A stretch of 64,000 nucleotides of DNA from Roseobacter sp. (lineage in GTDB: Bacteria; Pseudomonadota; Alphaproteobacteria; Rhodobacterales; Rhodobacteraceae), in contig JADFAE010000005.1 of NCBI GenBank assembly GCA_015665415.1, positions 186,001 to 250,000 of the forward strand. The letters run 5' to 3'. The translations under genes and the position numbers were made by a program. Under the pieces are notes generated by a model. The model saw nothing but the letters and a program-made list of their open reading frames with translations, was not told the origin of the DNA and did no database searches. Shown here in pieces: positions 27,323-43,651 of this stretch (position 1 is its first letter; every line of letters starts with the position of its first letter).

Positions 27323-27553
27323 GTTGCGACCTCTCAGCTTGCCGTGATGCGGATTGGGTGATGCGAAATATCAGCCAAAGTTGATCACCTGAACCGTGCA
27401 AGTCAACGCTTTGACCGGTTGGAAAAATCCAATTTTGATGTGACGGAACGTCCTTTGCACAGGGCTGCGCAACTGGCGCATGTTAAAGCCAGACCCTTTT
27501 CGAAGAACTGCTAGGACCAAGGATCTCAGGTCCAGAAAACCAAGAGGCCTGAC

Positions 27554-29329: not shown

Positions 29330-29484
29330 GCGCGGGAAACACCAGCATTGAAACCACCCCGAGCATATCTTGGTTTGCAAATGGCGTCCCCTCTGTAGTG
29401 AGTTCCTGTTCCGGTTGTTTACAAATCAGCATTCATCCGTCATCAGGCCGGGAGAGTAATCCCTAGACTGCAAGCTGGCCAAGT

Positions 29485-30543
29485 ATGACATCTGAAGCAA
29501 TCACCCGCCCTCAAGAAATTGAATATCACTTTGGCGGAGCCGCTGCCGCACCTGCCGCCGCACAGGGTTGCGTCTTTCAAGTGCACTACGGAAGCGCAGA
29601 TTTTGTGGATGTCAGCACGTCACCCGCCAGAATGGGCATTGCAATGCAATCTGATAGCTGTGCTGTCGATCTTGTCGAGAATTGGTACGCCGACAGCAGC
29701 GCAGAGACTACAACCGGGGCGATCCTCGATGGGCAGATGCGCTACATCGAACTTGGGGATGAGATCCTGTTCTTTGGAGAACTGGGGCGGCTTGCGGATG
29801 TCGAGGGCTCCAGCTTTCAATCCTACAAAGCGATCCTAGATACCCTGCACCAAAAGGGGTTTCACACTCTGGTGCGGTCATGGAACTTTATCCCGCAAAT
29901 CAACCACTGCCCGGAAGGCGCAATCGAGATCTATCAAGATTTTTGCAAGGGCCGCGCATTGGCCTTTGACGCCCGCGGTATTGATGAATTCCAATTGCCG
30001 GCAGCCACGGGAATCGGGTCTTATACCACCGCGATTACTGGCTATTTGATCGCGTCAAAGCGAGCGGATTATCTCCATGTAGAAAACCCCTTGCAAAGCC
30101 CAGCCTACAAGTACCCACCAAAATTTGGACCCAAATCTCCCAGTTTTGCCAGGGGCACCCTACATCTGGAATCAGGTCATGGCAGGGCGCAGGGAACCCG
30201 TTTTTTCCTGTCAGGGACTGCCAGCATCAGGGGTGCAGAGACGATGTGGCCGGGCGATGTCCGCCGCCAGCTCACCACATTGATGGAAAACATCCGCTAT
30301 CTGGTCAGTGATGAAAACCCACATCTGGCACAGCAGGGCCTGTCGATGGGTCTGGGGGACTTTGATCACTTCAAGGTCTATTTTCGCCATGCCAAGGACT
30401 TTGACATCATTCGCAAACTCTTGCTTGAGGACTGGCAGATCGCAGCGGAGAAACTCCATTTTATGAATGTTGATATCTGCCGCTCAGACCTGTTGGTTGA
30501 GCTTGAGGGCTGTATCAACAGGGCTGGTCCCATCGCAGTCTGA
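29485..30543 (+). CDS. Chorismatase (FkbO/Hyg5/XanB2-like) for hydroxybenzoate starter
   Basis: A 352-residue protein with the layout and motifs of chorismatases: LVRSWNFIPQIN (about residues 130-141), YQDFCKGRALAF (about 150-161), and the C-terminal FFLSGTASIRGAETMWPGD. FkbO makes dihydroxycyclohexadiene carboxylate, Hyg5 makes 3-hydroxybenzoate, and XanB2 makes 3- and 4-hydroxybenzoate from chorismate. Because the gene ends 1 bp from a convergent ten-gene-plus aryl polyene operon, the XanB2/Hyg5 role (aromatic starter for the polyene) is the best inference. The exact product cannot be read from sequence. Confidence 0.82.
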   Translation: MTSEAITRPQEIEYHFGGAAAAPAAAQGCVFQVHYGSADFVDVSTSPARMGIAMQSDSCAVDLVENWYADSSAETTTGAILDGQMRYIELGDEILFFGELGRLADVEGSSFQSYKAILDTLHQKGFHTLVRSWNFIPQINHCPEGAIEIYQDFCKGRALAFDARGIDEFQLPAATGIGSYTTAITGYLIASKRADYLHVENPLQSPAYKYPPKFGPKSPSFARGTLHLESGHGRAQGTRFFLSGTASIRGAETMWPGDVRRQLTTLMENIRYLVSDENPHLAQQGLSMGLGDFDHFKVYFRHAKDFDIIRKLLLEDWQIAAEKLHFMNVDICRSDLLVELEGCINRAGPIAV

Positions 30544-30544
30544 C

Positions 30545-31261
30545 CTAGGAACAACCGCCATCAATGCTAATCTGTTGGCCAGAAATGAACCCGGCCTTGT
30601 CGCTGGCCAGATAGCCGACGAGGGCGGCAACTTCCTCGACCGTGCCGCCGCGCCGCGCTGGCGTCATTTTCACCAATTCGTCGTAGTTGCTGAGGTTGGT
30701 CGTCTCGGCGGTGTCGATCAGTCCCGGGGCCACCACATTGGCGGTGATGCCACGCGAGCCGTATTCCTGGGTCAGGGATTTCACCAGGGGCAGGAACCCG
30801 CCCTTTGCGGCGGCATAGTTGGTCTGGCCGCGATTGCCGCGCACGGCTGTCAGGGAAGACAGTGCAATAATGCGCCCCCATCTGCTGCGCAGCATTGGCA
30901 TGATCAGCGGCCGAACGGCGGAGTAAAAGCTCGTCAGATTGAGATCGATGACACTTTTCCAATCGTCGAACTCCATCGCGGCAAAGGGTTTGTCGATCTG
31001 CCCACCGACGCAGTGCACCACCACCTGTATCGGCCCATCCGTGGTAAGCGCCTCCAGCTGGCTGACGGCCTCGGGGTTCTGGATGTCCAGTTGCAATGCC
31101 TCTGCGCTGCCACCATTTGCCGTGATACTGTCCACGCAGGCCTGCGCCTGATCCAGGTTTCTGTTTGCATGAACAAAGACATGCATCCCCATAGACGCCA
31201 GCTCATTACTCACGGCTCGCCCAATTGGGCTGGATCCGCCTACTACCAAGGCCCGCTTCAT
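30545..31261 (-). CDS. 3-ketoacyl-ACP reductase of the aryl polyene cluster (ApeQ/FabG-like SDR)
   Basis: A 238-residue short-chain dehydrogenase. The cofactor loop is VVGGSSPIGRA (residues 7-17), the catalytic Ser is in IIALSSLTAV, and the Tyr-Lys pair is in NYAAAKGG. It would reduce the beta-keto group of each newly added two-carbon unit with NADPH. It is the last gene of the long minus-strand operon, overlapping the preceding dehydratase by 4 bp, and runs tail to tail with the chorismatase. Confidence 0.87.
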   Translation of the reverse strand: MKRALVVGGSSPIGRAVSNELASMGMHVFVHANRNLDQAQACVDSITANGGSAEALQLDIQNPEAVSQLEALTTDGPIQVVVHCVGGQIDKPFAAMEFDDWKSVIDLNLTSFYSAVRPLIMPMLRSRWGRIIALSSLTAVRGNRGQTNYAAAKGGFLPLVKSLTQEYGSRGITANVVAPGLIDTAETTNLSNYDELVKMTPARRGGTVEEVAALVGYLASDKAGFISGQQISIDGGCS

Positions 31262-31683
31262 TCTGCTTCTCCCTGCATCTTGAGGGTTGCGCGCCCCTCG
31301 ATGTATTTCTGCCCTTGAGAGCTGACCTCAAAATCATAAAGGGCGCCGTTGCCGTCAAAATGCAGCTGGCGGGCTGTGATGTGCAGATTGTCAGAGCAAT
31401 CAGTCACTATGGAAGTCACGAGATCGACGTTTTGCAGACCAATCAGCAGACCGGTGTGGTTGCCCTTCAAATCCCCCGTCGAGGCATGGGCGGCAGCCGC
31501 CTGAGCACCAAGTTCGACCAGATTGGCAGTGTATAGGATGCCGTCCAGTCGCAGTGGGTAACCCGCATCTCCGTGAGGCACGCCCAAACAGTGGATCTCT
31601 GCCTCGTTGACCGAAATGATCCTGTCAATCAACCGCATCGCGCCCTTGTGGGGCATGCGCTCCAATACGGTGTCAAACCTCAC
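31258..31683 (-). CDS. Hotdog-fold dehydratase (ApeP/FabZ-like)
   Basis: A 141-residue single-hotdog protein. LERMPHKGAMRLIDRI (residues 7-22) and VELGAQAAAAH (about 57-67) match the FabZ/ApeP pattern, with the His and Glu positions that form the dehydration site. It starts with GTG at 31683, overlapping the preceding ketosynthase-like gene by 4 bp (GTGA). In described aryl polyene systems ApeP works together with a second hotdog, ApeI, found here at 37274-37570. Confidence 0.82.
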   Translation of the reverse strand: MRFDTVLERMPHKGAMRLIDRIISVNEAEIHCLGVPHGDAGYPLRLDGILYTANLVELGAQAAAAHASTGDLKGNHTGLLIGLQNVDLVTSIVTDCSDNLHITARQLHFDGNGALYDFEVSSQGQKYIEGRATLKMQGEAE

Positions 31684-32471
31684 AGCACTGTCACCTCTAG
31701 GTTCAAATTCATCCCGCCGTTGAGGCCAAGTGTGACATCTCCAGGAGCACGTTCGGCCAGTTTTTCAAACAGGGGCAGGATGGAAAATACCGGGTTTTGG
31801 GTTGCAAATGCCGCTTGGGAATAGCTGGTCTGAGGTGGTGTCTCAGCCTGTTTCACGAGTGAAAAGGCAATGCTGGCAAAGGATTGTTGGCTTTGTCGGC
31901 TGGACAGGGCCAGCCCGGCACCAGCGGGGCAGGACAGGCGATGTGATGTATCAAGCGGCGCAGGCAGTGGCGCATCAAATAGGACAACACCTACAGGGCG
32001 CTGCTCAAGTTGTACCTGCAATAGGGCCTTTAGCAGGCTGGAGCCCGCCGTATGATCAGCGCCACAGATACTGGTGGCCGCTGTCTTGATGCTCTGCGCA
32101 ATGGTCCACTGGCCGGAGGCCGCATTATGCACCGAGTTCTGAAACCGAGTGGGTCGGATTGCCATAGTCGGGCCGCGCAGCGCTTCGAGGATCAGCTGCA
32201 GGGTCTCGCCTTCTCCATAGGCGGAACCAAAGACCCAGGCTGCATCCTCTGCCAGTGCCGGGGAAATGTTTTCGGCCGCTTGAATTGCCAAAAGCGTTTG
32301 CGGGCTATAGCGCCGACGGGCGCGTGCAGGAATGCTTTCGGGGCTGGGTTTCCAGCCCTCGGGGAAGGCTGTGAAATCGGCGGTTGCAAGGGACCTCGCC
32401 AGGGGTTGGGCACCGTCTTTTGAAGGGGCGATCAGCGAAACGGCATCTACAAAGATCTGTGTTTGGGTCAT
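31680..32471 (-). CDS. Short ketosynthase-like chain-length factor (ApeC-like)
   Basis: A 263-residue protein corresponding to only the N-terminal half to two-thirds of a ketosynthase. Around SICGADHTAGSSLLKA the canonical TACSSS nucleophile site is replaced, and the two C-terminal His motifs are missing, so it should be catalytically inactive. In aryl polyene systems such a protein (ApeC) pairs with an active ketosynthase (ApeO) as a chain-length factor. It overlaps the active ketosynthase gene by 4 bp, fitting one-to-one assembly. Confidence 0.8.
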   Translation of the reverse strand: MTQTQIFVDAVSLIAPSKDGAQPLARSLATADFTAFPEGWKPSPESIPARARRRYSPQTLLAIQAAENISPALAEDAAWVFGSAYGEGETLQLILEALRGPTMAIRPTRFQNSVHNAASGQWTIAQSIKTAATSICGADHTAGSSLLKALLQVQLEQRPVGVVLFDAPLPAPLDTSHRLSCPAGAGLALSSRQSQQSFASIAFSLVKQAETPPQTSYSQAAFATQNPVFSILPLFEKLAERAPGDVTLGLNGGMNLNLEVTVL

Positions 32472-33658
32472 CGGCTCAGCACCAATGCGCAGTTGGAGCC
32501 GCCAAAGCCAAATGAGTTGCTAACCACATGCTTCAAAGCTGCGTTGCGGCACTGTGCTGTGACGTTTGGCAGGGCCTTGGGATCCAGTTTTTCGAGACCG
32601 GGGTTGCCGGGAATGATGCCTTCTTCCAACGCATAGATACACAACACGGCCTCGGCGGCGCCAGCGGCACCCAGGGTATGGCCAATGGCGCCTTTTAGGG
32701 AGGAGGCGGGGACATGCGCGCCGATCGAAGAGCTGACGGCCTGAGCTTCGGCAGCATCATTCACAACCGTGGCCGTGCCATGCAAATTGACGTAGTCGAT
32801 CTCCTCCGCTGTGAGGCAGGCACGCCGGAGCGCTTGTCGGATTGCAGCGGCAGCACCGGCGCCGTCTTCGGGAGGGGTGGACATATTGGTTCCATCCGAG
32901 CTTTCGCCAAAACCGCTCATCCGGATGCAGTTTTTGCCGTCGCGTTCGACAATCAAAAAGGCTGCCGCCTCGCCGATGGACAGGCCATCACGGTTGCTGT
33001 CACAGGGTTTGCAGGGTCTGCGAGAGATCAGCTCCAGAGATTCAAACCCATTGAGAGAGGTCAGGCAGAGACTGTCGACGCCGCCAACCAGAACCGCGTC
33101 ACAAAGGCCGGCCTCGATGAGTTGATAGGCATCCACCAGCGCCTTTGCGGAGGAGGAGCAGGCGGTTGAAATCGAATAGCTTGGGCCCTGGAAATCCAGA
33201 TAGTCCTGCAGGAATGCCGCAACGGCCTGTTGGCTGTCATGGTGGTGCATCGAATAGCTTTCGGGCATCGGGTCGTCCTCTTCTCGCGCCCGGTAGACAC
33301 GTTCCAACATCTCAACGCCCGCAGTGGAAGTACCCATGACAATGCCACAGCGTGCCGCACCCCATTTTCCCCGCGTAGCCAATGCTGCCTGATCAAAGCC
33401 ATCGCTTGCCAGTGCGGCCAGGGCCAAGCGGTTGGCCCGGTTATCATAGGCGCTCAGCCCTGCCGGAAAGCTGAGGGCAGCCAAGTCATCAACTTCACCG
33501 AGAAAGCAACTGAAGGGCAGGTTCAGATGATGGTCCTCGCGCAGCCCGGAGGTGCCATCACGCAGCGCGGTCACATGGGCGGTGCGTCCCCGACCCAGGC
33601 AGGACACAAGCGTGCTATGGGAAATGCCGATATCAGAGGCACCTAGTGTATTCGTCAT
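32468..33658 (-). CDS. Beta-ketoacyl synthase of the aryl polyene cluster (ApeO-like)
   Basis: A 396-residue condensing enzyme with an intact thiolase-fold triad: Cys 167 in STACSSSAKAL, His in NLHGTATVVND and His in GAIGHTLGAAGAAEAV, plus the closing NSFGFGGSN motif. It should extend the acyl-ACP polyene by decarboxylative condensation with malonyl-ACP. It overlaps both neighbours by 4 bp (MMPL pump upstream, chain-length factor downstream). Confidence 0.88.
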   Translation of the reverse strand: MTNTLGASDIGISHSTLVSCLGRGRTAHVTALRDGTSGLREDHHLNLPFSCFLGEVDDLAALSFPAGLSAYDNRANRLALAALASDGFDQAALATRGKWGAARCGIVMGTSTAGVEMLERVYRAREEDDPMPESYSMHHHDSQQAVAAFLQDYLDFQGPSYSISTACSSSAKALVDAYQLIEAGLCDAVLVGGVDSLCLTSLNGFESLELISRRPCKPCDSNRDGLSIGEAAAFLIVERDGKNCIRMSGFGESSDGTNMSTPPEDGAGAAAAIRQALRRACLTAEEIDYVNLHGTATVVNDAAEAQAVSSSIGAHVPASSLKGAIGHTLGAAGAAEAVLCIYALEEGIIPGNPGLEKLDPKALPNVTAQCRNAALKHVVSNSFGFGGSNCALVLSR

Positions 33659-35850
33659 TGGTCTTCATTTCGTTTAGTCTGTGCAAGGGTCAAAAACAGC
33701 ATCAACATCAGTCCCATAGTCACTGTTGCACCTATCTGATGGAGGATTTGAACTTCAGAAAGAGAGAGGACCAGGAAGGCGATCAAAGTGGAGCCTGCGC
33801 ATACAAAGACTGATCTGGCAGAGGTCTTGCTGTCTTTGTCTCCCTTCATGCCGGTCAGGATGAGATCATAATCCACGCCAATTCCCACAACAAGTGCCAT
33901 AGCGACGATGTGAAAGATGCTGAACGCACCGTAAACTGCGATGATGATGCAGGCGCTGCCGCCCAGAACCGCGCAGCAGGTGCGAAAAATGCGCAGGGCT
34001 TCGCCCCGGCTGCCCAGCCCAACAGCCAGCAGCCCCATACCGCAGAGCAATCCAGCAAAGAGCCAGGAGGCAATGCGACTGCGCAGATCTGTCATGGTTT
34101 GACGAATTGGGGCCAGTAGATCGACCAGCTCAGCGCCTGGTGTGGTGAGGGTAAGATCCAACTGAGAGCTGCCCTGTGGCAAGACCAGCTCAACCCGTTC
34201 CTGCCAGCGCCCTTCTGAGACCGACAGCCGCCTGGCCAAGCCCTGCAACTCGGGGAACCTGCTCAGGTCTTCTGGCTGAAGGCCTGGGGCCAAAAGGGCG
34301 CGTTCAAACTCAAGGGTCTGTTGCTCGGCGAAGGCGACGGCCATGCCTGCTTTCTCCAGCGCCAGTTCGGCCTCGGCTCTGAAGCCGGAAACCGGGCTAT
34401 GAAGCGCTCGCGAGGGTGAGAGCCATTGAGAGAGCATCTGATAGGATTGCAATGCCCCATCTTCGATGGCCTGATCCAAGAGCACCGCCAGTTGCACCTC
34501 GTTTTCAAGCAGCGCGCCGAGCGTTTCGCCCTCTACATCGATGGCATATGTGCTGGAGGGCAGATCCAGCTTTTCGTTCAATTCAGCCAGCTCTGTGCGG
34601 ATGTGCTCTGGCGGTTCAAACAGGGCAATGGGGGGCTGCTGATTGAACAGCACCGCGGTGACCAGCCCAACCAGGATGAGCACTGTCTCGATCCAGGTCT
34701 TGGCGGGCAGATAAAAGCCAAAGTTGCTGAGCGTGACGCCTCTTATTTCAGCCTTTTTGGACACGGGCATCGCGACGGAGGCAATGGCGGCGATGGACAG
34801 CCCAACCAGGATAAAGACCCCGGTTTGAACCAAGGCGGGTACCTGTGAGCCAACCATGGCCAAAAACGAAAGCCCCGTGGTTGCGGCGCCCAGCAGGATC
34901 AGCCTATGGGCCTTGCTGCGGCGGCTGCCGTGATGGGCCATGACATGGATCGGATAGTCCAGTGCCAGACCCAAAAGAACGCCACCAAAGGCCAGGGCCA
35001 CAATATGCACCGAGCCAAATGCCAGATTGACCACGCCAATGGCAGAAGTCACGCCCAGGGCGAGGGGGAGAAAGGCATGCACCACCAAGAGCACAGAGCG
35101 CAGTGACCAGATCAGCCAGATGACCAATAGCAGGCTGGCAATCATCGAGGCGCGTGCCGAGGCTGCGGAATTGAAATGTGTGGTCTCTGCGGCGATGACC
35201 CGAACCCCCAGCAGATGAGCCGTGACCTTCTCTTGTGCAGCAAGGTCACGCAGGGCCGCTGACCAATCCTTTAGCGCTTGGGCGTCAAAGGGTTGTTGTA
35301 CCAGGCGGATATGCAGAATTGCGGCAGAGTTGTCACTGGATTGCCAGACGCCGTCTTCAACTGGGAAGGTGCCTTTGGGGTTCTCAAACCGTTTGACAAT
35401 GCGCCAATAGCTTCCTGTTGGATCACGCAGGAAACGATCCCCAAACACGATGCTGGCCGCATCGGAAAAATAGTCTTTTGCCTCGACAAGCCGCCGGGAC
35501 ATACTTTGGCTTTCCAGATCCGCCTGTTCGGGAGGGGCTAGCAGGAGCCGGTTTTCCCAGATCCATCTGTCAAATTCCTCCGAGGGGGCCGGGGTGCTGA
35601 AAAGAACCTCACTGACCAGCGGGTCTTGCTTCAGGTGTTGTGCAATTGCTTTTGCTGCTTGGTTGCGTTGGGCAACCTGGGGGTGGCTCAGCGCGACAAG
35701 CACATCCAAGCCCGTCCCCTCCGTGAGAGAGGGAAGCCCGGCATTCTCCCCGACGATCAATGCTTCGGTGTCGGAGCTGATCGTGACCCAGGGCGCGAAG
35801 AGCAGGATCAGCCCGATCAGGCCCAACGTAGCCAAGATAGTCCGCGTCAT
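33655..35850 (-). CDS. MMPL/RND-family exporter of the aryl polyene cluster
   Basis: A 731-residue inner-membrane protein with the duplicated RND/MMPL plan: one N-terminal helix, a periplasmic loop (about residues 35-215), five or six helices (about 225-370), a second helix near 395, another periplasmic loop (about 420-600) and a second helix bundle (about 600-720). The short GVDYDLILTG segment carries the conserved Asp-Tyr of MMPL helices. It is expected to move the finished aryl polyene lipid across or out of the inner membrane. 4-bp overlaps on both sides tie it to the operon. Confidence 0.85.
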   Translation of the reverse strand: MTRTILATLGLIGLILLFAPWVTISSDTEALIVGENAGLPSLTEGTGLDVLVALSHPQVAQRNQAAKAIAQHLKQDPLVSEVLFSTPAPSEEFDRWIWENRLLLAPPEQADLESQSMSRRLVEAKDYFSDAASIVFGDRFLRDPTGSYWRIVKRFENPKGTFPVEDGVWQSSDNSAAILHIRLVQQPFDAQALKDWSAALRDLAAQEKVTAHLLGVRVIAAETTHFNSAASARASMIASLLLVIWLIWSLRSVLLVVHAFLPLALGVTSAIGVVNLAFGSVHIVALAFGGVLLGLALDYPIHVMAHHGSRRSKAHRLILLGAATTGLSFLAMVGSQVPALVQTGVFILVGLSIAAIASVAMPVSKKAEIRGVTLSNFGFYLPAKTWIETVLILVGLVTAVLFNQQPPIALFEPPEHIRTELAELNEKLDLPSSTYAIDVEGETLGALLENEVQLAVLLDQAIEDGALQSYQMLSQWLSPSRALHSPVSGFRAEAELALEKAGMAVAFAEQQTLEFERALLAPGLQPEDLSRFPELQGLARRLSVSEGRWQERVELVLPQGSSQLDLTLTTPGAELVDLLAPIRQTMTDLRSRIASWLFAGLLCGMGLLAVGLGSRGEALRIFRTCCAVLGGSACIIIAVYGAFSIFHIVAMALVVGIGVDYDLILTGMKGDKDSKTSARSVFVCAGSTLIAFLVLSLSEVQILHQIGATVTMGLMLMLFLTLAQTKRNEDQ

Positions 35851-36428
35851 TGAGACAGAAACTTGATTTGGCGGTTTTGATTGCCTGTCATCTCGAGGTC
35901 GATGGCCTGCAAGACATCGCCACAGCCGGAAAAGACAATGCTGCCGCCGCCGCTTTGGCGCAGCGAAATACGGGCGATCCAGCCAGTCGATGTCGAGGTG
36001 ATCTTATGCGGCAGCGGGGGCAAATCAGAAATGCCCTGATTGAACACTGCCGCCTGTAGGACGGTGAAAAACGCGTTCATACGCTTGGGGATCGCGCGGG
36101 TGATCTCTGTTCCATCACGCTGGATGGTGATGGTCTTGGGGCCGATTGTCATCTCTTCGACTTTGGGTGTGGTTTGCCGTCGCAACAAGAATTTGTCGTG
36201 GGTCAAGACAAAGACACCGCCATTTTGAACCGCAGTGCCAAAGGCCGGATGTGCAATGATTTCCGCATAGGCCACTGAGCCACCTACAGAAATGGGTTCT
36301 GCCATCAAGGCTGCCTCCAGAGTAGCAGGGGCAGGCTGCAAGCAGTTCGGCTCAGCGGCGCCAGATATCGAAGAAGTTGAACCAGTTATAAGGATCGACG
36401 CGGCACCAACCTTCGAGAGCCTTTGCAT
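35847..36428 (-). CDS. LolA-like periplasmic carrier of the aryl polyene cluster
   Basis: About 193 residues from ATG 36428, giving a plausible signal peptide (MQRLSKVGAASILITGS, cleavage near SGAAEPN); a longer frame reaches 36515. The beta-rich remainder (FVLTHDKFLLRRQTTPKVEE, then IGPKTITIQRDGTEITRAIP) is like the LolA-fold proteins found next to MMPL pumps in aryl polyene clusters. It probably carries the polyene lipid across the periplasm. Unusually, its start lies 77 bp inside the preceding acyltransferase gene; it overlaps the MMPL gene by 4 bp. Confidence 0.7.
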   Translation of the reverse strand: MQRLSKVGAASILITGSTSSISGAAEPNCLQPAPATLEAALMAEPISVGGSVAYAEIIAHPAFGTAVQNGGVFVLTHDKFLLRRQTTPKVEEMTIGPKTITIQRDGTEITRAIPKRMNAFFTVLQAAVFNQGISDLPPLPHKITSTSTGWIARISLRQSGGGSIVFSGCGDVLQAIDLEMTGNQNRQIKFLSQ

Positions 36429-37281
36429 AATCCTGCGCCATGCATGCAGCGGCGCTGGCGCGCTCAGATCGTGGCACAGGTGCCCCATCATAGAACTGTG
36501 TGAATTCAGCGGCATAGTGGTCTTTGGATTCCCATCTGGCGAAACTGAGGATAATTGGAACCCTGGCTGCCATTGCAGTCAGGTAGGGGGATAGCGGAAC
36601 TTGTATATCATCGCCCAGAAATGAGACATCCTGTTTCGCACGCACAGTCGCATCGGGCAGTCGATCGCCAAGAATGGCCACAAACTCGCCGCTGCTTAAG
36701 GCGTCGGAGACTTGGATCATGGCCATGGGGCCGTTTTCCAAAGCGATGATCTTTTCACTGACCTCCGGGTTGATGCCCTCCAATATGCTAGTGCTTTTGC
36801 CAGCGTGTTGAGTGAACATCATATAGCGAACCGACAGACCTGGGAGTTCACGATCCAGCGCTCTGAGGGCCTCAAAGCTACCGTAGTGCGCCCCCAGCAG
36901 CACTGCCCCCTTGCCCTGATTTACGAGCTCTTGAATAGGCTCGGCACCGCGCGTCGACACGGAAAACTGGTGAACTCCGCGCCCCAGCAACCGCACTCGA
37001 TCAAAGAAGACATGACTAAAGGTTCTGGCATGCCGCATGCGTTCAATCAGCGTTGGAGCACGGCCCAGAATACGGGTGAGAAAGGCGATCGAAGCGCGGG
37101 TGCTCAGCCGCCGTTTGTCGATCGCAAAGATCAGTGAAATGACCCAGAGCAGAGGGACATATATGAGGCTTGGTGGTCTGCTTGCCAGTAGCCGCATGAA
37201 TTTCAACTGCCACAAAGATCCAGACTCCCTGGCTTTTATCCAGCCAGACACCTGTTTCTCCCCGGATGCCTGCTCAACCAT
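36352..37281 (-). CDS. LpxL/HtrB-type lipid acyltransferase
   Basis: A 309-residue inner-membrane acyltransferase with one N-terminal hydrophobic segment (about residues 36-53). The catalytic HX4(D/E) motif is HYGSFEALR near residues 133-141. The Lipid A acyltransferase family transfers acyl chains from ACP. In aryl polyene clusters a homologue is thought to help attach the polyene to its lipid anchor. The C-terminus (NWFNFFDIWRR) is typical of the subgroup. It overlaps the small dehydratase gene by 8 bp upstream and the LolA-like gene by 77 bp downstream. Confidence 0.82.
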   Translation of the reverse strand: MVEQASGEKQVSGWIKARESGSLWQLKFMRLLASRPPSLIYVPLLWVISLIFAIDKRRLSTRASIAFLTRILGRAPTLIERMRHARTFSHVFFDRVRLLGRGVHQFSVSTRGAEPIQELVNQGKGAVLLGAHYGSFEALRALDRELPGLSVRYMMFTQHAGKSTSILEGINPEVSEKIIALENGPMAMIQVSDALSSGEFVAILGDRLPDATVRAKQDVSFLGDDIQVPLSPYLTAMAARVPIILSFARWESKDHYAAEFTQFYDGAPVPRSERASAAACMAQDYAKALEGWCRVDPYNWFNFFDIWRR

Positions 37282-37570
37282 TGATCGGACGCAGTTCTAC
37301 CCGCGCATTAGCCAGGGCCCCCGTCCCTGATCTCCACGCAATCTTGGCAAGGGTTTCCCCTATTTCTATGGTGATATCAAAAGGTTGACCCGGGGTCAGT
37401 TGACGCAGAAACTTTATGCGTTGAACGCATTTGATCTCATAACCGATGTCTCGTAGCCCCTGTTCCGCCAGGCCCAACAAAACCGCCCCGGGAACAATTG
37501 GGTTCCCGGGGAAATGGCCGTCCAAGAAATTTGACTTGGGACTAACGCCATCTGATCTCATTAGCTGCAC
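37274..37570 (-). CDS. Small hotdog dehydratase (ApeI-like)
   Basis: A 98-residue hotdog protein with FLDGHFPGNPIVPGAVLL (about residues 15-32), the FabA/FabZ-type catalytic His and central helix entry. The start is GTG at 37570, supported by GGAGG about 8 bp upstream; ATG 37561 is the alternative. It is expected to form the active dehydratase with the ApeP-like protein at 31258-31683, introducing each double bond. Confidence 0.8.
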   Translation of the reverse strand: MQLMRSDGVSPKSNFLDGHFPGNPIVPGAVLLGLAEQGLRDIGYEIKCVQRIKFLRQLTPGQPFDITIEIGETLAKIAWRSGTGALANARVELRPING

Positions 37571-37613
37571 AGCCAGGCCTCCGAGCGGATGTACCGGACC
37601 GGGTTGCCCAGGA

Positions 37614-38015
37614 TTACTTCAGGCAAAAGATCACATCGTTGGTCAGGTTTTCGATCCAGCTGTTGTAGCGTTTATGGATGGTGTTTTTGGCAGCGTTGTA
37701 CTTCATGTTGGTCGAGTCTCGGTAGGAGATCTTGAAAGCCTGGCTGCTGTATTCAACGTCAACTTCAACATAATGTTTGCCGCGCACGGCCAGTTGTCCA
37801 ATTAATTTGCCTTGGGCCACACGGCTGAACTTCCAGCCACGTGCCGAGCTGCATGTTTTCAGGGCGTTCTCTACACCACGGAGTGTGGTGTTCTTAGAGG
37901 TCACTTCGCTGAGCTGGACAAAGGAGGTCTCGATTTTCTCCAGAGCTGCGGCAGTTGTCGCTGTCAGTGGTTGCAGGGCAAAGGCCCCCAGGAAAGCATA
38001 GGTCAAAAGTTTCAT
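37614..38015 (-). CDS. Small secreted protein inside the aryl polyene operon, unknown function
   Basis: A 133-residue exported protein. The ATG at 38015 is preceded by GAGGAG with 7-bp spacing. The signal peptide is about residues 1-23 (cleavage near TAAA). The mature part has two Cys (CSSARGW and the penultimate-region FCLK), the strand-rich RGKHYVEVDVEYSS, and a closing IHKRYNSWIENL pattern. Similar H..YN.W...L endings occur in small periplasmic or lipoprotein families of Proteobacteria, but no lipobox is present here. The Cys pair could form a disulfide. Position between the glycosyltransferase and the ApeI-like dehydratase suggests an accessory envelope role. Confidence 0.65.
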   Translation of the reverse strand: MKLLTYAFLGAFALQPLTATTAAALEKIETSFVQLSEVTSKNTTLRGVENALKTCSSARGWKFSRVAQGKLIGQLAVRGKHYVEVDVEYSSQAFKISYRDSTNMKYNAAKNTIHKRYNSWIENLTNDVIFCLK

Positions 38016-38025
38016 TTTTTTCTCC

Positions 38026-38769
38026 TCAATTACGTTTCTGATCAATAAGTCCCAAGGCTTTCAAAAAGCCCATTGGGCGTAGGCCTCTAAGAAGCAGGAA
38101 TTCTGTGACAAGCCCAAACAACCGCATGAAGTCACGCAGTGGATCAAAGTGGCTTGGGCGCAAGACAAAACCCTCATAGCGGGCTTTCAGGGGCACATAT
38201 TCAAAGGGAATTCCCTTCTCTGCGGCATAGAGTAATACGGCGGTTTCGAATTTGAACCCCGCGACATGACGCTTGGGAATATCTATCCGTTTTAACGCGC
38301 TCGCCGGGTAGAGCCGCATTCCACATTGGGCGTCCTTGATCCTGCGACCACAGGCCCAGCCAATAAAGAAGTTGCCAAACTTGATGCCTTTGCGGCGGGA
38401 GCCGGGCATGTTTTCCATATCGGCAGAGCGATCCCCCATGACAATGGCCAGGGGGGTGTCGTGATGCTTTGCCAAGAATTTCGGGATATCCGCAGGATCG
38501 TGCTGCATGTCAGCATCCAGCACGATTACCGCCGTTGCACCTTTGTCCATTGCCGCTTGGAAACCTTCGACCAGACGATCCCCCTTGCCCTGGTTGATTT
38601 CATGACGCAGCACAATAGCACCGGTATCGGATAAGGACTCCGCCGTGCCATCCGTCGACCCGTCATCAACCACAATCACCCGGTCCACCATCGGAATGGT
38701 CTCCTCGACCACCTGTTGAACGGTCAGGATCTCGTTATGTGCCGGGATCAGTGCAAAGGAATTGGACAT
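38026..38769 (-). CDS. GT2 glycosyltransferase (DPM1-like) of the aryl polyene cluster
   Basis: A 247-residue cytoplasmic GT2 with ALIPAHNEILTVQQVVEE at the start, VIVVDDGSTDGTA (nucleotide binding) and the DxD motif VLDADMQHDPAD. It resembles dolichol-phosphate-mannose synthases without the C-terminal membrane domain. It probably adds a sugar or prepares a lipid-linked sugar when the polyene is anchored. It lies 16 bp after the methyltransferase and 10 bp before the small secreted protein gene. Confidence 0.83.
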   Translation of the reverse strand: MSNSFALIPAHNEILTVQQVVEETIPMVDRVIVVDDGSTDGTAESLSDTGAIVLRHEINQGKGDRLVEGFQAAMDKGATAVIVLDADMQHDPADIPKFLAKHHDTPLAIVMGDRSADMENMPGSRRKGIKFGNFFIGWACGRRIKDAQCGMRLYPASALKRIDIPKRHVAGFKFETAVLLYAAEKGIPFEYVPLKARYEGFVLRPSHFDPLRDFMRLFGLVTEFLLLRGLRPMGFLKALGLIDQKRN

Positions 38770-38785
38770 AAGGGGTCAGCGCCTG

Positions 38786-39520
38786 CTATCGGCGCGCAAC
38801 ATATTCAGAGAAACAGCCCAGCAATGAGTTGTGCTCGACTGTTGTGAACCCTGCTTTACGCAGACTGTCCAAGACGTTTTCAATAGGAACCATCTGATCC
38901 ATGGATTCCCAGTAATAACGCATCAGACGAAAGACATTGCGGTCTCTTGTCAGGATCATCGCAACCGTAGGCAGGATATGCTTGAAGTAGAGGCGGAACA
39001 GGGCCTTTGGAATGGCTTTTTCTGGTACCGTCACATCCATGATCAGCACCTTGCCGCCATCTTTCAGAACGCGGTGATATTCCGCAAAGCTGTCCTCCAG
39101 ACTGTCCACATGACGCAGGGCAAACCCCATGGTCAGAAAGTCGAAGCTTTCGCTTTCAACGGGTAGTTTTTCTGCGGTGGATTGGTGGAAGGTCACCGGC
39201 ACACGTTTCTTTGCCTCTGCGATCATACCGGCCGAAGGCTCAACGCATTCAATCTGTTTTGGGTTATCCAAAATGGTCATCAACGCCCGTGCCACCTGAC
39301 CAGTGCCGGTCGCAACATCAAGAACCCGCATTTCGGAGGTCACACCATTGCGGCGCAGGGCCTCGCGACGATACCAGTCGCCAGAGCCGAACCAGCCCCA
39401 TTTTGCGATGGCCTCATAGTTCTTTGCAGTGTCGTCAAACACTTGGCGCAGGAAGGCCTGCTTTTCGGCGTGAGACTCGTAATACTCACCAACTACGATT
39501 GGTTTATTGCCGTCAGACAT
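38786..39520 (-). CDS. SAM-dependent methyltransferase (UbiE/COQ5-like)
   Basis: A 244-residue class-I methyltransferase starting at ATG 39520. Motif I is VLDVATGTGQVAR (about residues 64-76), with the acidic ribose contact in IECVEPSAGM, and ALRHVDSLEDSF and GGKVLIMDVTVPE as motifs II/III. Although it looks UbiE-like, its place at the head of the polyene operon suggests it methylates the aryl head group or hydroxyl of the polyene, a modification known from aryl polyenes. It diverges from the acyltransferase gene across about 200 bp. Confidence 0.8.
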   Translation of the reverse strand: MSDGNKPIVVGEYYESHAEKQAFLRQVFDDTAKNYEAIAKWGWFGSGDWYRREALRRNGVTSEMRVLDVATGTGQVARALMTILDNPKQIECVEPSAGMIAEAKKRVPVTFHQSTAEKLPVESESFDFLTMGFALRHVDSLEDSFAEYHRVLKDGGKVLIMDVTVPEKAIPKALFRLYFKHILPTVAMILTRDRNVFRLMRYYWESMDQMVPIENVLDSLRKAGFTTVEHNSLLGCFSEYVARR

Positions 39521-39717
39521 TAATAAGACCCTGTCGCCTAGATACCTGGCCAAAACTCTCGAATCAGATTTTTGGCTCTTCAGCGCAACTTATACCAGTA
39601 GGGAATTCATGCCTGCCAGCCCTGCATCGTGCCTAACCTGCGCAACGAGTGATTTTAAAAGTAGTTTGTTGCGTTTCATTCGACGTGTATAGACGATTTT
39701 GCACACGTACTAAGCTG

Positions 39718-40503
39718 ATGGAAGTCATGGATACCTTTGCCCGCAAAGAAACCGTTCAGTCAAAGCGACTTTTGCCCTATTTGGCTGCCTGGCTGAGAAC
39801 CCGTGTCTATGAAGCCTTTGTTTTTCTGGTCAGTATTGCAGCAGGCGCCTGTATCATTTTTTATCTGCACTGGCGGCCGTCGCCGGTGTTGGTGCGTCGA
39901 TTGCTTCGATTTTGGTCCTGCGGCTATATTTATGGCGCCAAATACATCCTTGGGGTGACTTATAAGATCGAAGGTCAGGAACATATCCCCTCTGGGCCTG
40001 TGATCTATATGGGCAATCACCTTACCGCTTGGGAATCCGTGATGATGACGGTGCTGGTGCCGCATGTGAACATGGTGACCAAACGCGCCGCCATGTCCAT
40101 TCCGGTGTTTGGTTGGGGTTTGAAACATGCCCCGATGACGCCCATTGACCCCGATACCCCAGGCAAAAACATCCGCCGCCTGTTAAAAGAGGGCAAGGCC
40201 TCGATCCGCGAGGGCAGGAACATGGTCATTTTTCCAGAAGGATCTCGTGTTCCTATCGGAGAAACACGCCCCTATGCGCGAGGGTATGAGATCCTGTACA
40301 AACACTGTGGCGTGCAGGTTGTACCCTTTGTTACGGATTCAGGACTCCATTGGCCGTCGGGCTACTCGACAAAACCTGCCGCAGAAATCACTCTTCGGTT
40401 CCTGCCACCCATCGATGCAGGCAAAGATCCGAATGAATTTGCAGCAGAGCTGGAAGAAACCATCCGCTCGGAAGCGGCCAAACTGATGGCTCCTCAGGTA
40501 TAA
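39718..40503 (+). CDS. PlsC-type 1-acylglycerol-phosphate acyltransferase
   Basis: About 261 residues; ATG 39718 or 39727 could start it, and an in-frame GTG at 39649 is less likely. A hydrophobic helix (about 25-47) is followed by the acyltransferase motifs MGNHLTAWES (HX4E) and MVIFPEGSRVPIGE. The only plus-strand gene inside the aryl polyene cluster, it diverges from the methyltransferase and faces the AMP ligase. It probably places an acyl chain (possibly the polyene itself) on a glycerol phosphate. Confidence 0.83.
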   Translation: MEVMDTFARKETVQSKRLLPYLAAWLRTRVYEAFVFLVSIAAGACIIFYLHWRPSPVLVRRLLRFWSCGYIYGAKYILGVTYKIEGQEHIPSGPVIYMGNHLTAWESVMMTVLVPHVNMVTKRAAMSIPVFGWGLKHAPMTPIDPDTPGKNIRRLLKEGKASIREGRNMVIFPEGSRVPIGETRPYARGYEILYKHCGVQVVPFVTDSGLHWPSGYSTKPAAEITLRFLPPIDAGKDPNEFAAELEETIRSEAAKLMAPQV

Positions 40504-40554
40504 GCCTGCGGGCGGTGAAACTGCGGGCCTGAGCCTAAGCGCCCCCACTGTAGG

Positions 40555-41901
40555 TTAGCTATGCAACCCGGCCTTCTTTAACAGATCTATCGTTATTGCA
40601 CGGGTGATCTTCCCGGTAGCAGAGCGGGGAATTTCAGGTAGAAACAGCAGCTTTTTGGGAACAAAGGCTGCGTCGAGGTGGAGCAATAGGTGGCGGCGCA
40701 CCAGGCTGCGTATCTCCGTTTCTGACAGGGAACTGCCCTGAAGCGGCACCACTGCTATGGCCAGGGCATCAGACTCGCTGCGTTTGTCGTGCAGGAAAAC
40801 CCCATCGGATATCTCTGCAACCTCCGAAAGAGTCGCATTCAAGGCGGCAAGTCGGCTGCGTTTTCCGCGCACGCTCACCATATCACCAGCGCGGCCAAGC
40901 AGGGTAAAGCGCCCGTCCGGATGCTGCTCGATCTCGTCTTCCAGCGCGATAGGCACCGGCAGATGCGGTGCCGCCGCCAGGCAGGTCGCTGGGGTCTTTT
41001 GCAGTTCAAACCCAGCCGAGAGGCTCCAGGCCTCTTCAAATGCGGTTTGACGCAGCGCCATAGAGCCGGTCTCGGTGCTGCCATAGATCTCCATGACCTT
41101 CAGGTTGTCTCTGGCGGCCAGTTTTTGGGCCAGGGCCTGTGGAAAAGGCGCAGTGGCGGAGAGCACGCAAATGATTTCCGGTGCGGCCAAAATGGCTGCC
41201 TCAAGAAACCGCAGATGCGCAGGGCTGGTGATCAGGACAAGCTTGGAAATCCCGCAGGCGCGCGCCGCCTCTATCGCCGCTTCCAGGTCAGCGGGGTAGA
41301 AAATGGTGTCCCGATAGGTGGCATGTCCAAAGCCAAGCGTGGCAAAAATTGTGGCCTCCAGCCCGTACATATGACCATGTGGCGTGGTACCCAGCAGACC
41401 AACCTCTGAGGGCTGCACCTCCAGTTCCTGTAAGATCTGATCGGTAATTGCCGCGCCGCCACGCAACATCTTCCAGGTTTTGACGTTGCATTTTGGCTGC
41501 CTGGTCGAGCCTGAGCTATAGACGTGAATTTCCGTGGGGTTGGCTTGCAGTGACGTTGCATAGTCCCAGTTCTTCGCCGGTTCAGACTGCGCAGCTTCAA
41601 ATGACAGGCGGGCCGCAAGCGCGTCATGTTCTGCGTTGTCGCTCAGTATGACCGGGGCAGGCGCATCGGCAATCGAGGACCGGATCGCTTCCGGTGCCAG
41701 CGAAGGGGGCAGGATAATCGTCTGATTATTGAGCAACCCTGCGACAATGCCGAGGGCAAATTGGTAGCGATTCTGGAACAGGTTGCAAATCGAACCTGCC
41801 GCCTGCAATTGAGCGCGCAGGGCAGCAAGATCGGTGACGAATTGCTTGTGATCAATAACGCCATCTTTTGAAAAGAATAATTTTCTGTCCGCTGCATACA
41901 T
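40555..41901 (-). CDS. AMP-forming ligase of the aryl polyene cluster (ApeH-like)
   Basis: A 448-residue ANL-family enzyme, shorter than ordinary acyl-CoA synthetases. The P-loop region reads VYSSGSTRQPKCNVKTWK (with CNVKTW in place of KGV..TH), then EIYGSTETGSMA, the hinge LGRAGDMVSVRGKR and the C-terminal Lys motif PRSATGKITR. It most likely adenylates the hydroxybenzoate starter and loads it on the ACP encoded two genes upstream. The ATG at 41901 lies 2 bp after the stop of the membrane protein gene, so translation is coupled. Confidence 0.85.
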   Translation of the reverse strand: MYAADRKLFFSKDGVIDHKQFVTDLAALRAQLQAAGSICNLFQNRYQFALGIVAGLLNNQTIILPPSLAPEAIRSSIADAPAPVILSDNAEHDALAARLSFEAAQSEPAKNWDYATSLQANPTEIHVYSSGSTRQPKCNVKTWKMLRGGAAITDQILQELEVQPSEVGLLGTTPHGHMYGLEATIFATLGFGHATYRDTIFYPADLEAAIEAARACGISKLVLITSPAHLRFLEAAILAAPEIICVLSATAPFPQALAQKLAARDNLKVMEIYGSTETGSMALRQTAFEEAWSLSAGFELQKTPATCLAAAPHLPVPIALEDEIEQHPDGRFTLLGRAGDMVSVRGKRSRLAALNATLSEVAEISDGVFLHDKRSESDALAIAVVPLQGSSLSETEIRSLVRRHLLLHLDAAFVPKKLLFLPEIPRSATGKITRAITIDLLKKAGLHS

Positions 41902-41903
41902 GT

Positions 41904-42542
41904 TCAAATTTCCAATTTCTTCCAGGTATCATGCTGCATGATCAAAGATATAGAGCGCTGCCAGGTTTCCGGCCGCTTAAACCGAACGCGTGCGATTTCA
42001 TGAGATATGACAAACCACAGCGCCTGAGCAAACAGAAGCGTGACCAAAACTACCCCAGCAAACACGCGTAGTGGCTCAGCCACCAGGGCTAGTAGGCTCA
42101 GGCCTGCAGAGAACAGGCCGATGCCCAGCCAGACAGCGCATTGTTGCCTTAGATAGGTCGCGAATTTGCAAGATGGGCTTGGACCCAAATGGGCGGATGT
42201 GACGAACTGGAGCAAGATGCAGGGTCGGCCTCGCAGCAGATTGTGGCCAAAGACATAAGCCATGCTCAGGTTGATCGCGATGACGGCGAGATAGGGCACA
42301 AATTGCAGCTCTGGTTTCAAAAGCGACAGGAGCACCCCTAAGGGGCCTCCGATCCCCAGCAAGATTAGTCTGCCCCTTTGCAGGCCGCAGACATCACGCA
42401 AAAACAGCGAGAAGACATGTAGGGTAAACAGAATGAAGACGGCATTCAGCAGAGGCGAAGCAAACAGCCAACTGGAGATCAGCAAGGCAGCCGTGACGGC
42501 GCCCCTCAGCTGAGGAGGCCAGCCTGCCGGATTGAGGCTCAC
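41904..42542 (-). CDS. Polytopic membrane protein of aryl polyene clusters (COG4648-like)
   Basis: About 212 residues from the GTG at 42542, whose codon overlaps the ACP stop by 4 bp (GTGA). Six or so hydrophobic stretches are seen (about residues 12-32, 35-50, 60-95 and 130-180). Its position between an ACP and an AMP ligase is characteristic of the COG4648 membrane protein in aryl polyene clusters. No catalytic motif is visible; a scaffold or membrane-anchoring role is possible. Confidence 0.75.
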   Translation of the reverse strand: MSLNPAGWPPQLRGAVTAALLISSWLFASPLLNAVFILFTLHVFSLFLRDVCGLQRGRLILLGIGGPLGVLLSLLKPELQFVPYLAVIAINLSMAYVFGHNLLRGRPCILLQFVTSAHLGPSPSCKFATYLRQQCAVWLGIGLFSAGLSLLALVAEPLRVFAGVVLVTLLFAQALWFVISHEIARVRFKRPETWQRSISLIMQHDTWKKLEI

Positions 42543-42832
42543 GTCTTCCGGTTTTCCGCGATGTGACTGGAGAGGGCGCGCACGCAAGAGAAGATCTCTT
42601 GGTTGCGCTCATCATCGGAGCGCAGCTTGAAGCCATAGGTCTCGCTGATGGCAAAAGCGATTTCCAGAGCGTCGATGGAATCAAGCCCAAGCCCCTCGCC
42701 AAACAGGGGCGCATCAAAATCAATTTCCGCAGCAGTCACGTCATCCAGAACCAAGGCGTTCACAATCAATTCAGCGACTTCAAGTTGTAGCTTTTTGAAA
42801 TCACTCTGATCTGCGAGTTGGGTTGTTGACAT
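42539..42832 (-). CDS. Acyl carrier protein of the aryl polyene cluster
   Basis: A 97-residue ACP. The phosphopantetheine Ser is in LGLDSIDALEIA (Ser 52), flanked by the acidic helices expected of an ACP. ATG 42832 has GGAG about 8 bp upstream; an in-frame start at 42853 is less supported. It is the first gene of a three-gene operon (ACP, membrane protein, AMP ligase). Only one ACP was found, whereas described aryl polyene clusters usually have two. Confidence 0.87.
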   Translation of the reverse strand: MSTTQLADQSDFKKLQLEVAELIVNALVLDDVTAAEIDFDAPLFGEGLGLDSIDALEIAFAISETYGFKLRSDDERNQEIFSCVRALSSHIAENRKT

Positions 42833-43651
42833 GTCTGCTCCATTCTTTGGCACTGCCCCGAAGCAGATTTCGCCACGGCCTGTTTAGCAGCAATTTTCTA
42901 TCTGCCGGGAACTGTCACGTCCAGCCAAAAATGGGGAGAGTTTATTCGCTAGCCGACACCGGGAGCAATAGGGGGAGCGGCCTTGGGTAGTCAGCAGAGG
43001 CCGAGGTCTGTTCCTCTGCTCGCAGCCCGAAACGGTCATCGACAGAGAGTGCCACGCCATCAATGCCGCAGTTGCGAGGACTGCGGGCCAGCCTCCCAAA
43101 AGCGGTCATTGAACCACCCTGGCGTTGGACCGCCAATGCTGCAATCAGCACCAGCGGCAGCTATGCGCAGAAAGCGACATTTGCAAAGTCATCCCGCGAA
43201 GGGGGAATGCCGCACGAGCTGCTCTATCGGGTCATTGAGCGATTGCTCTCGATGCGGTGCCGTAACCTGTCACAGGTGACATTCACTGTGCGGGTCAAAA
43301 AGGACTCTTTAAAATTGCAGCCCTATCCGTATGCGATTATCTAGGATCGTTATTATTTTGTTACGTAATTTGTAACCGAGACTGTTTTGGCAGACACATA
43401 TTTTCGAGTGCAGGTTGAAAAGGATCAGCAAAAAAATTGGCCAGCGCCCCTGCTGACACATACCAAGAACAACAGGCCTCGCGAGGTGCCATTGTCGACC
43501 AAGGCTGTGGAGTTGCTACAGGCTTTGGGCTCTGATCCTTAGTCATATTCGGGCGTTGACGACGACGTCCTGCATGGGCGTGCAGGTAAAGGATATGTCA
43601 ATGTCATTTGCCTAGGATGCGGGGAGCTGCACATTCAGACAGAAGGCTGAT
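42833..43651. other. Long intergenic region upstream of the aryl polyene ACP operon
   Basis: About 819 bp between divergent genes with no frame that looks coding on either strand. It must hold the promoter for the ACP operon and for the muramidase gene. Two small inverted repeats stand out: ACCTGT-C-ACAGGT at 43265-43277 and GTTAC-N7-GTAAC at 43360-43376, the second in an AT-rich patch. The rest, rich in short GC words, looks like decayed sequence. Nothing else was recognised. Confidence 0.45.

Follow-up and report, generated by a model that had tools for sequence, protein, structure and literature searches.

The window analysed here is a stretch of 64,000 nucleotides of Roseobacter sp. (GenBank assembly GCA_015665415.1, contig JADFAE010000005.1, positions 186,001 to 250,000 of the forward strand). 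It contains, at 29,485-42,853, a cluster of 16 genes that very probably encodes a complete-looking aryl polyene (APE) pathway of the xanthomonadin/arcuflavin type in a Pseudophaeobacter-type bacterium. A model working from the letters alone (the sequence-only reading) had proposed fifteen neighbouring genes of such a pathway. Each function that it named has a gene at the place given, as judged from Pfam and NCBIfam scans and from synteny (four genes are without family match, the LolA-like one being placed by position and profile). The genes are neighbours as claimed, but their number is 16, the extra one coding for a 143-amino-acid protein (37614-38045). The limits proposed, 29,485 and 42,832, are the ATG codons of the chorismatase and of the acyl carrier protein (ACP), respectively; a GTG at 42,853 is an alternative ACP start.

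The APE, xanthomonadin-like identity is borne out by the ketosynthase and the ACP, which pass the models NF006618 and NF006617, respectively, and by the position of the ketosynthase in a tree (see below). The names of the two models make no mention of APE, and proteins from Escherichia coli, Azospirillum and Roseomonas served as control. With NF006618, E. coli ApeO scored 556 bits, the Azospirillum protein 513 and the Roseomonas protein 496, the window ketosynthase being the lowest of the four (438.9 bits for a cut-off of 407). NF006617 was passed by one of the two E. coli ACPs (L095 15424-15681) and by both alphaproteobacterial ACPs; the other E. coli ACP passes a different model, and E. coli ApeR matches NF006587. 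In a profile check set beforehand the ketosynthase was not assigned to FabF (219-220 bits versus cut-offs of 494 and 387). That a standard operon for fatty acids, lipid A or polyhydroxyalkanoates was mistaken for an APE cluster is extremely unlikely: the core enzymes are indeed cousins of fatty-acid enzymes and the reductase passes a FabG model, but the ketosynthase score for NF006618 is double that for FabF, as it is for E. coli ApeO; the truncated chain-length factor, the ligase and the chorismatase have no role in fatty-acid synthesis; four other, stronger PF00109 matches exist in the genome; and seven of the 12 genomes of the genus are without ketosynthase match at E 1e-60 (the threshold used for all ketosynthase searches across genomes, with the window's own genome counted throughout).

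The active-site motifs are in place. The Cys, the Lys and both His motifs of the ketosynthase are present (C167, H293, K322, H327), and the Ser and Tyr-Lys motifs of the reductase, the core motifs of the ligase and the LDSID motif of the ACP are intact. The sequence-only reading had seen a ketosynthase with an inactive partner, and a full ketosynthase does stand beside a truncated one (PF13723, alignment): the chain-length factor has 263 amino acids and the second half of a ketosynthase is missing from it. On our own reading of the alignment, an Asp would occupy the position of the catalytic Cys of the ketosynthase. Seven gene joints show overlaps of 4-8 bases. Because of these overlapping joints, the active-site motifs and the conservation in four relatives from the genus, we do not regard the cluster as a chance arrangement.

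In the ketosynthase tree (36 rows, of which 35 are distinct since L003 and L075 are one contig; midpoint root), the sequences of the genus form with those of genomes G818 and G004 an eight-row group (support 100/100) within a 28-row group (100/100), apart from eight rows that include E. coli. The 28-row group owes the name xanthomonadin-type to the genes found in most of its rows; none of its rows bears the name Xanthomonas or Azoarcus, and for L084, L085, L093 and L125 few cluster genes lie in the stretch fetched. On L125, a Variovorax megaplasmid, the APE-type ketosynthase (11974-13179) has no other APE genes within 12 kb.

General features of APE clusters found here are an APE-type ketosynthase, a truncated chain-length factor and, beside the ketosynthase, an ACP, a ligase, a reductase and two dehydratases (the first one by synteny, and with the aryl substrate of the ligase predicted). 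Membership of the xanthomonadin/arcuflavin-type subgroup follows from the placement in the 28-row group and from the absence of DUF3261. Clusters of the E. coli type contain ApeR, ApeK, a second ACP and ApeN, a DUF3261 protein (PMC8253772; papers are cited here and below for those of their sections that were available). None of the four is encoded by the 16 genes, and only DUF3261 was searched genome-wide. DUF3261 (PF11659) is absent from 12 of 12 genomes, i.e. that of the window, G295, G298, G303, G304, G004 plus six xanthomonadin-type genomes drawn from the phylum, and it is found in both E. coli-type alphaproteobacteria (G652, G313); these two are the sole sign of a working search, none of the 14 control genomes giving a match.

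The ketosynthase occurs in five of the 12 genomes of the genus, in two of 295 genomes sampled from the family (G004 besides the window's own), in 28 of 385 of the class and in 84 of 398 of the phylum. The four other carriers of the genus share 15 of the 16 genes, in the same order and at 71-98% protein identity. The chorismatase is present in the window's own genome (G000), G295 and G298, at 73% and 86% identity in the two relatives. In G303 and G304 its place is taken by transposase-like frames, and homology to the window DNA begins only in its last 65 bases. The frames at this place in L076 (6062-6984) and L075 (15829-16440) are of the DDE transposase type and end like the chorismatase C-terminus; L076 has in addition a weak IS110-like fragment, below the Pfam cut-off. 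In G305 (86% complete) only residues 3-79 of the chorismatase are matched, beside the carboxyltransferase gene, and there is no ketosynthase match; this partial chorismatase (L120 9631-9984) is followed by a 645-amino-acid protein with a ferritin-like domain. A decaying APE cluster, giving no pigment in this strain, would account for the patchiness within the genus (5/12), the transposase remnants in place of the chorismatase in two carriers and the lone fragment of G305; it is nevertheless unlikely, since all 16 frames of the window are open, with their motifs intact, and 15 genes are highly identical in the four relatives.

The block has sharp edges. On the left, the cluster-free genome G302 loses similarity to the window at 29,350; on the right, similarity ends at 42,934-42,951 in all four cluster-bearing relatives. 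Three sites are occupied within the genus: that of the window, another place on the chromosome in G295 and a third site shared by G303 and G304. The G295 cluster carries about 100 bases of the 3' end of the carboxyltransferase gene (window 29,224-29,328), of which an intact copy exists elsewhere. From the edges, the three sites and the piece of neighbouring gene carried along, we conclude that uptake of the block was probably followed by movement within the genus through recombination between strains. Its G+C content fits this (55.8%, as compared with 59.7% elsewhere in the window, although the 10 kb on its left side have 58.2%).

The sequence-only reading had also singled out a chorismatase starter enzyme as a difference from the E. 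coli cluster. The chorismatase does belong to the cluster; as a correction, it looks Hyg5-like from residues, structures and trees. The protein matches PF21168 at 78.3 bits (cut-off 27), and its nearest solved structures are Hyg5 (181 bits) and FkbO (153 bits); the chorismatases beside the xanthomonadin-type clusters L114 and L082 reached 106 and 91 bits with the same program. Residues G176, G244 and C332, in columns matched through the sequence of the Hyg5 structure, are the Gly, Gly and Cys named for Hyg5-type chorismatases in PMC7170507, and E339 is the catalytic Glu. All 11 XanB2-like rows have Ala in the G176 column and share the residues of the other two columns with the window; the label XanB2-like was given because all 11 genomes also have an APE-type ketosynthase, in a comparison set without proven XanB2. 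The chorismatase lies outside the group of these XanB2-like (CH-III) enzymes and carries the Hyg5-type (CH-II) residue signature.

Two chorismatase trees were computed. With 20 rows, the 11 XanB2-like rows are split from the window chorismatase at 100/99; with 25 rows, 15 rows (the 11 plus L151, L161, L166 and L167) stand apart from the window's side at 89/96, and L148 branches with the window group (88/94). The smaller tree omits L148 and L161 (long branches), L166 and L167 (Bacteroidota) and L151 (cut by a contig end); the G176 column holds Gly in four of these five and Ala in L151. Neither tree has L160 (one internal stop), nor L114 and L082, which duplicate L150 and L155. As to the position of the window group between the Hyg5/FkbO rows and the others, the rival split has support 58/36 and the stem length is 1.5 (20 rows). 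Matches to the chorismatase at E 1e-10 were found in 12 of 398 genomes of the phylum (best other than the window's 124.5 bits) and in six of 385 of the class (best other 114.6 bits), the window's own genome being included in both. Eleven plasmid records gave a match, and the best eight (Streptomyces, five; Pseudonocardia, two; Caballeronia, one) are annotated as FkbO/Hyg5-family, at 38-45% identity. To conclude, the chorismatase looks Hyg5-like, with 3-hydroxybenzoate as predicted product. Since the reaction of a chorismatase is not accurately predictable by alignment (PMC3949708), the formation of 3-hydroxybenzoate only is given here as a prediction.

Outside the genus, the closest ketosynthases are those of G818 (61% identity; another family) and G004 (54%). 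Both clusters have the antiparallel PlsC gene and then the methyltransferase to ketoreductase genes in the order of the window; as a variant, the ACP-membrane protein-ligase unit lies at the ketoreductase end, with a flavin adenine dinucleotide (FAD)/tryptophan-halogenase-like gene in between. These FAD-dependent halogenase-like genes beside the ketoreductase (L078 5935-7644 and L111 6075-7361) raise the possibility that the pigments of the two nearest extra-genus clusters might be halogenated. Tentatively, and with rather more doubt than confidence, we propose an alphaproteobacterial APE clade with an exchangeable starter/tailoring slot beside the ketoreductase. The slot would hold a Hyg5-like chorismatase in Pseudophaeobacter, making 3-hydroxybenzoate only and uncoupled from ubiquinone synthesis, and an FAD halogenase in G004 and G818; the block would be a moving pigment cassette whose starter genes are gained and lost separately. 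XanB2, for its part, also supplies 4-hydroxybenzoate in xanthomonadin organisms. The same tentative proposal includes a separate origin of the Hyg5-like chorismatase from the XanB2-like ones of APE-bearing proteobacteria. If the enzyme is Hyg5-like in function, it would represent a second, independent route of 3-hydroxybenzoate into the APE pathway, and the carriers devoid of chorismatase offer a natural test of what feeds that pathway. In Caballeronia sp. NK8, plasmid pNK83 carries a Hyg5-family chorismatase gene (L164 5725-6699) and plasmid pNK81 an APE-type cluster (L126); the two might cooperate.

By analogy with the named families and with work on E. coli and Azoarcus, the pathway would run as follows. 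The chorismatase would convert chorismate to 3-hydroxybenzoate, which the adenosine monophosphate (AMP)-forming ligase would load onto the ACP; the ketosynthase and the truncated chain-length factor would add malonyl units iteratively, each unit being turned into a conjugated double bond by the ketoreductase and the two hotdog dehydratases. The methyltransferase would cap the aryl hydroxyl, and the glycosyltransferase and the two acyltransferases would attach the polyene to a lipid. The MMPL pump, the LolA-like carrier and the ApeA-like protein would then carry the product to the outer membrane, where, if it resembles known APEs, it may act as a membrane-bound yellow antioxidant. Instead of a glycolipid, the product could be a hybrid with the polyene acid in ester linkage to a dialkylresorcinol (arcuflavin/flexirubin type), given that dar genes accompany 16 of the 39 polyene-cluster genomes in a table of PMC3949708; this is very unlikely here, none of the 16 cluster genes being dar-like (no search for dar genes was made elsewhere in the genome) and the glycosyltransferase and both acyltransferases lying inside the cluster.

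Several observations weigh against a complete APE pathway that colours its host. The chorismatase stays below the TIGR04444 cut-off (242 bits, E 6.9e-72, for a cut-off of 325) and forms a long branch. No chorismatase match was found anywhere in the genomes of the cluster carriers G303, G304 and G004. UbiC was considered as an alternative source of 4-hydroxybenzoate and rejected: PF04345 matched none of 13 genomes, E. coli being the sole positive of 14 controls (other chorismate lyases were not searched). Carriers without chorismatase and without UbiC imply either another source of aryl acid or a silent pathway there. A LolB-like (DUF3261) acceptor was not found in the window's genome, and four of the 16 genes (the first dehydratase and those for the LolA-like, 143-amino-acid and membrane proteins), all placed by synteny, have no match in Pfam and NCBIfam. 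As for colour, the yellow colonies of the Pseudophaeobacter arcticus type strain (PMC3910698) count in favour of such a pathway, though they may have another cause; on the other side, those of P. leonis are beige (PMC4127530), and isolates with APE clusters have been called unpigmented (PMC10286705), so that the cluster need not give colour.

In the available open-licence literature, APE clusters of Rhodobacterales appear only as antiSMASH calls, including that of one Paracoccaceae strain (PMC11426391). PMC6316421 reports seven arylpolyene clusters in 15 genomes, among them that of Pseudophaeobacter sp. EL27, which is perhaps one of the holders; these are not specified in its available text. 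No Pseudophaeobacter APE is named in the available sections of PMC10439622, PMC5064897, PMC4127530, PMC10286705, PMC8269258 or PMC7993494, and the word 'polyketide' is absent from those of the P. arcticus genome paper (PMC3910698).

The genes form four strand runs by coordinates (Table 1). The ACP-membrane protein-ligase unit lies on the minus strand (42,853 to 40,555); the PlsC acyltransferase gene stands alone on the plus strand (39,649-40,503); eleven minus-strand genes lead from the methyltransferase to the ketoreductase (39,553 to 30,545); and the chorismatase gene, on the plus strand (29,485-30,543), is convergent with that of the ketoreductase. The lipid A-type acyltransferase and the FabA-like dehydratase are both marginally above their Pfam cut-offs. 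The MMPL pump was recognized by Pfam, the LolA-like protein by profile only and the COG4648 protein by position only. With hhalign, the LolA-like protein gave a probability of 95.3 (E 2e-8) against three LolA-type proteins; it and five relatives had no Pfam match at E 0.1 (0/6), and a single-sequence AlphaFold2 model (170 residues) reached a predicted local distance difference test score (pLDDT) of only 45.5. The LolA-like frame begins with a signal-peptide-like stretch that, at 36352-36515, overwrites the last codons of the acyltransferase gene in another frame, and the ATG of the LolA-like frame is unconserved in the genus.

Table 1. Genes of the cluster and limits of the probably mobile block (window coordinates)
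Feature	Position	Strand	Evidence
Chorismatase (starter synthesis, predicted 3-hydroxybenzoate)	29485..30543	+	TIGR04444, PF21168, residues, trees
FabG-type ketoreductase (ApeQ-like)	30545..31261	-	NF004200 277.8 bits (cut-off 273); motifs; 44% to E. coli cluster
Hotdog dehydratase (ApeP/ArcI position)	31258..31683	-	Synteny and homologues in related clusters
Chain-length factor, N-terminal ketosynthase half only	31680..32471	-	PF13723 2e-23; alignment
Elongating ketosynthase (ApeO/ArcK-like)	32468..33658	-	NF006618 438.9 bits (cut-off 407); motif positions
MMPL/RND exporter (ApeM-like)	33655..35850	-	PF03176 32.6 bits (cut-off 20.5)
LolA-like periplasmic carrier	35847..36428	-	Position and hhalign; start codon unsure, frame overlaps end of preceding gene
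Lipid A/lysophospholipid-type acyltransferase (C-terminal half of ApeJ)	36352..37281	-	PF03279 23.3 bits (cut-off 22.3); 28% to E. coli
Small hotdog dehydratase (ApeI-like)	37274..37570	-	PF07977 23.9 bits (cut-off 23); GHFPGNPIVPGA motif
Exported-looking 143-amino-acid protein, ApeA-like	37614..38045	-	Weak: 32% over 95 amino acids to E. coli ApeA (first gene of cluster)
Family 2 glycosyltransferase (N-terminal half of ApeJ)	38026..38769	-	PF00535 1e-22; 33% to E. coli
S-adenosylmethionine methyltransferase, UbiE-like	38786..39553	-	PF01209 5.5e-31
PlsC-type acyltransferase, antiparallel	39649..40503	+	PF01553 1.8e-15; place and strand identical in L078, L111
AMP-forming aryl-ACP ligase (ApeH/ArcT-like), predicted	40555..41907	-	PF00501 2.7e-11; core motifs; 25% to E. 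coli
Membrane protein, ApeG/ArcU (COG4648) position	41904..42587	-	Synteny
ACP, Ser of LDSID motif	42539..42853	-	NF006617 117.3 bits (cut-off 70); motif
Edges of block mobile within genus	29350..42950	.	DNA homology to relatives ends on both sides

To the left of the block, an AMP ligase and a biotin-carrier/carboxyltransferase fusion (25763-29329) are kept together in cluster-free relatives, the cluster being inserted at their end. The fusion (27554-29329) was considered as the malonyl-CoA supply of the cluster and rejected: it is matched at E 1e-100 in ten of the 12 genomes of the genus, five of them without ketosynthase match, and not in G004 or G818. On the same contig as the window, a 2182-amino-acid frame with a ketosynthase domain (G000 contig 3, 48626-49378) is probably a type I polyketide synthase.

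Among known systems, the E. coli CFT073 cluster (apeA-R; PMC8253772, L095) has counterparts in the window, at tblastn E 1e-4, for ApeA, one ACP, ApeH, ApeJ (two genes in the window), ApeO and ApeQ. The counterpart of ApeL was found by profile, and ApeC, G, I, M and P have counterparts of like kind that tblastn missed at that threshold. The window differs by the lack of ApeR, the second ACP, the thioesterase ApeK and the DUF3261 protein, by its in-cluster chorismatase and by gene order. The arcuflavin (arc) clusters of Azoarcus sp. BH72 were compared by the gene table of PMC3949708: as in the window, there is a single ketosynthase with an N-terminal-ketosynthase partner, two dehydratases, a reductase, a ligase and an ACP, together with two acyltransferases, an exporter, LolA, a glycosyltransferase, a methyltransferase and a chorismatase. 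Unlike those of the window, the arc genes are spread over two loci and include a halogenase, an antiporter, a deacetylase and two-component genes, the chorismatase is XanB2-type, and there is a dialkylresorcinol partner (PMC3949708); the likeness is by description, not by sequence. Azoarcus arcK and arcT mutants (ketosynthase and ligase) are colourless (PMC3949708). The xanthomonadin clusters of Xanthomonas and Lysobacter, also compared by description, likewise draw 3-hydroxybenzoate from a chorismatase and make the polyene by fatty-acid-like synthesis.

The core order of the window is ACP-membrane protein-ligase-dehydratase-acyltransferase-LolA-MMPL-ketosynthase-chain-length factor-dehydratase-FabG. 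The sequence-only reading was right that it differs from the E. coli type, but the order is nothing special, being that of other xanthomonadin-type clusters, named Alphaproteobacteria included. The same core order is found on annotated plasmids of Roseomonas haemaphysalidis and Azospirillum ramasamyi, save for two genes between MMPL and ketosynthase in the latter. Their ketosynthases are 43-44% identical to that of the window; Roseomonas has a tryptophan-halogenase gene and Azospirillum an FAD-dependent oxidoreductase gene, and a chorismatase is absent from the stretch compared. APE clusters have been reported from Acetobacteraceae (PMC8776678), Pseudovibrio (PMC5563371) and a Paracoccaceae strain (PMC11426391). 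Given the shared core order on the named plasmids and these published clusters of the class, the cluster is not new in kind: it is another xanthomonadin-type APE cluster, and such clusters in this class are already in print.

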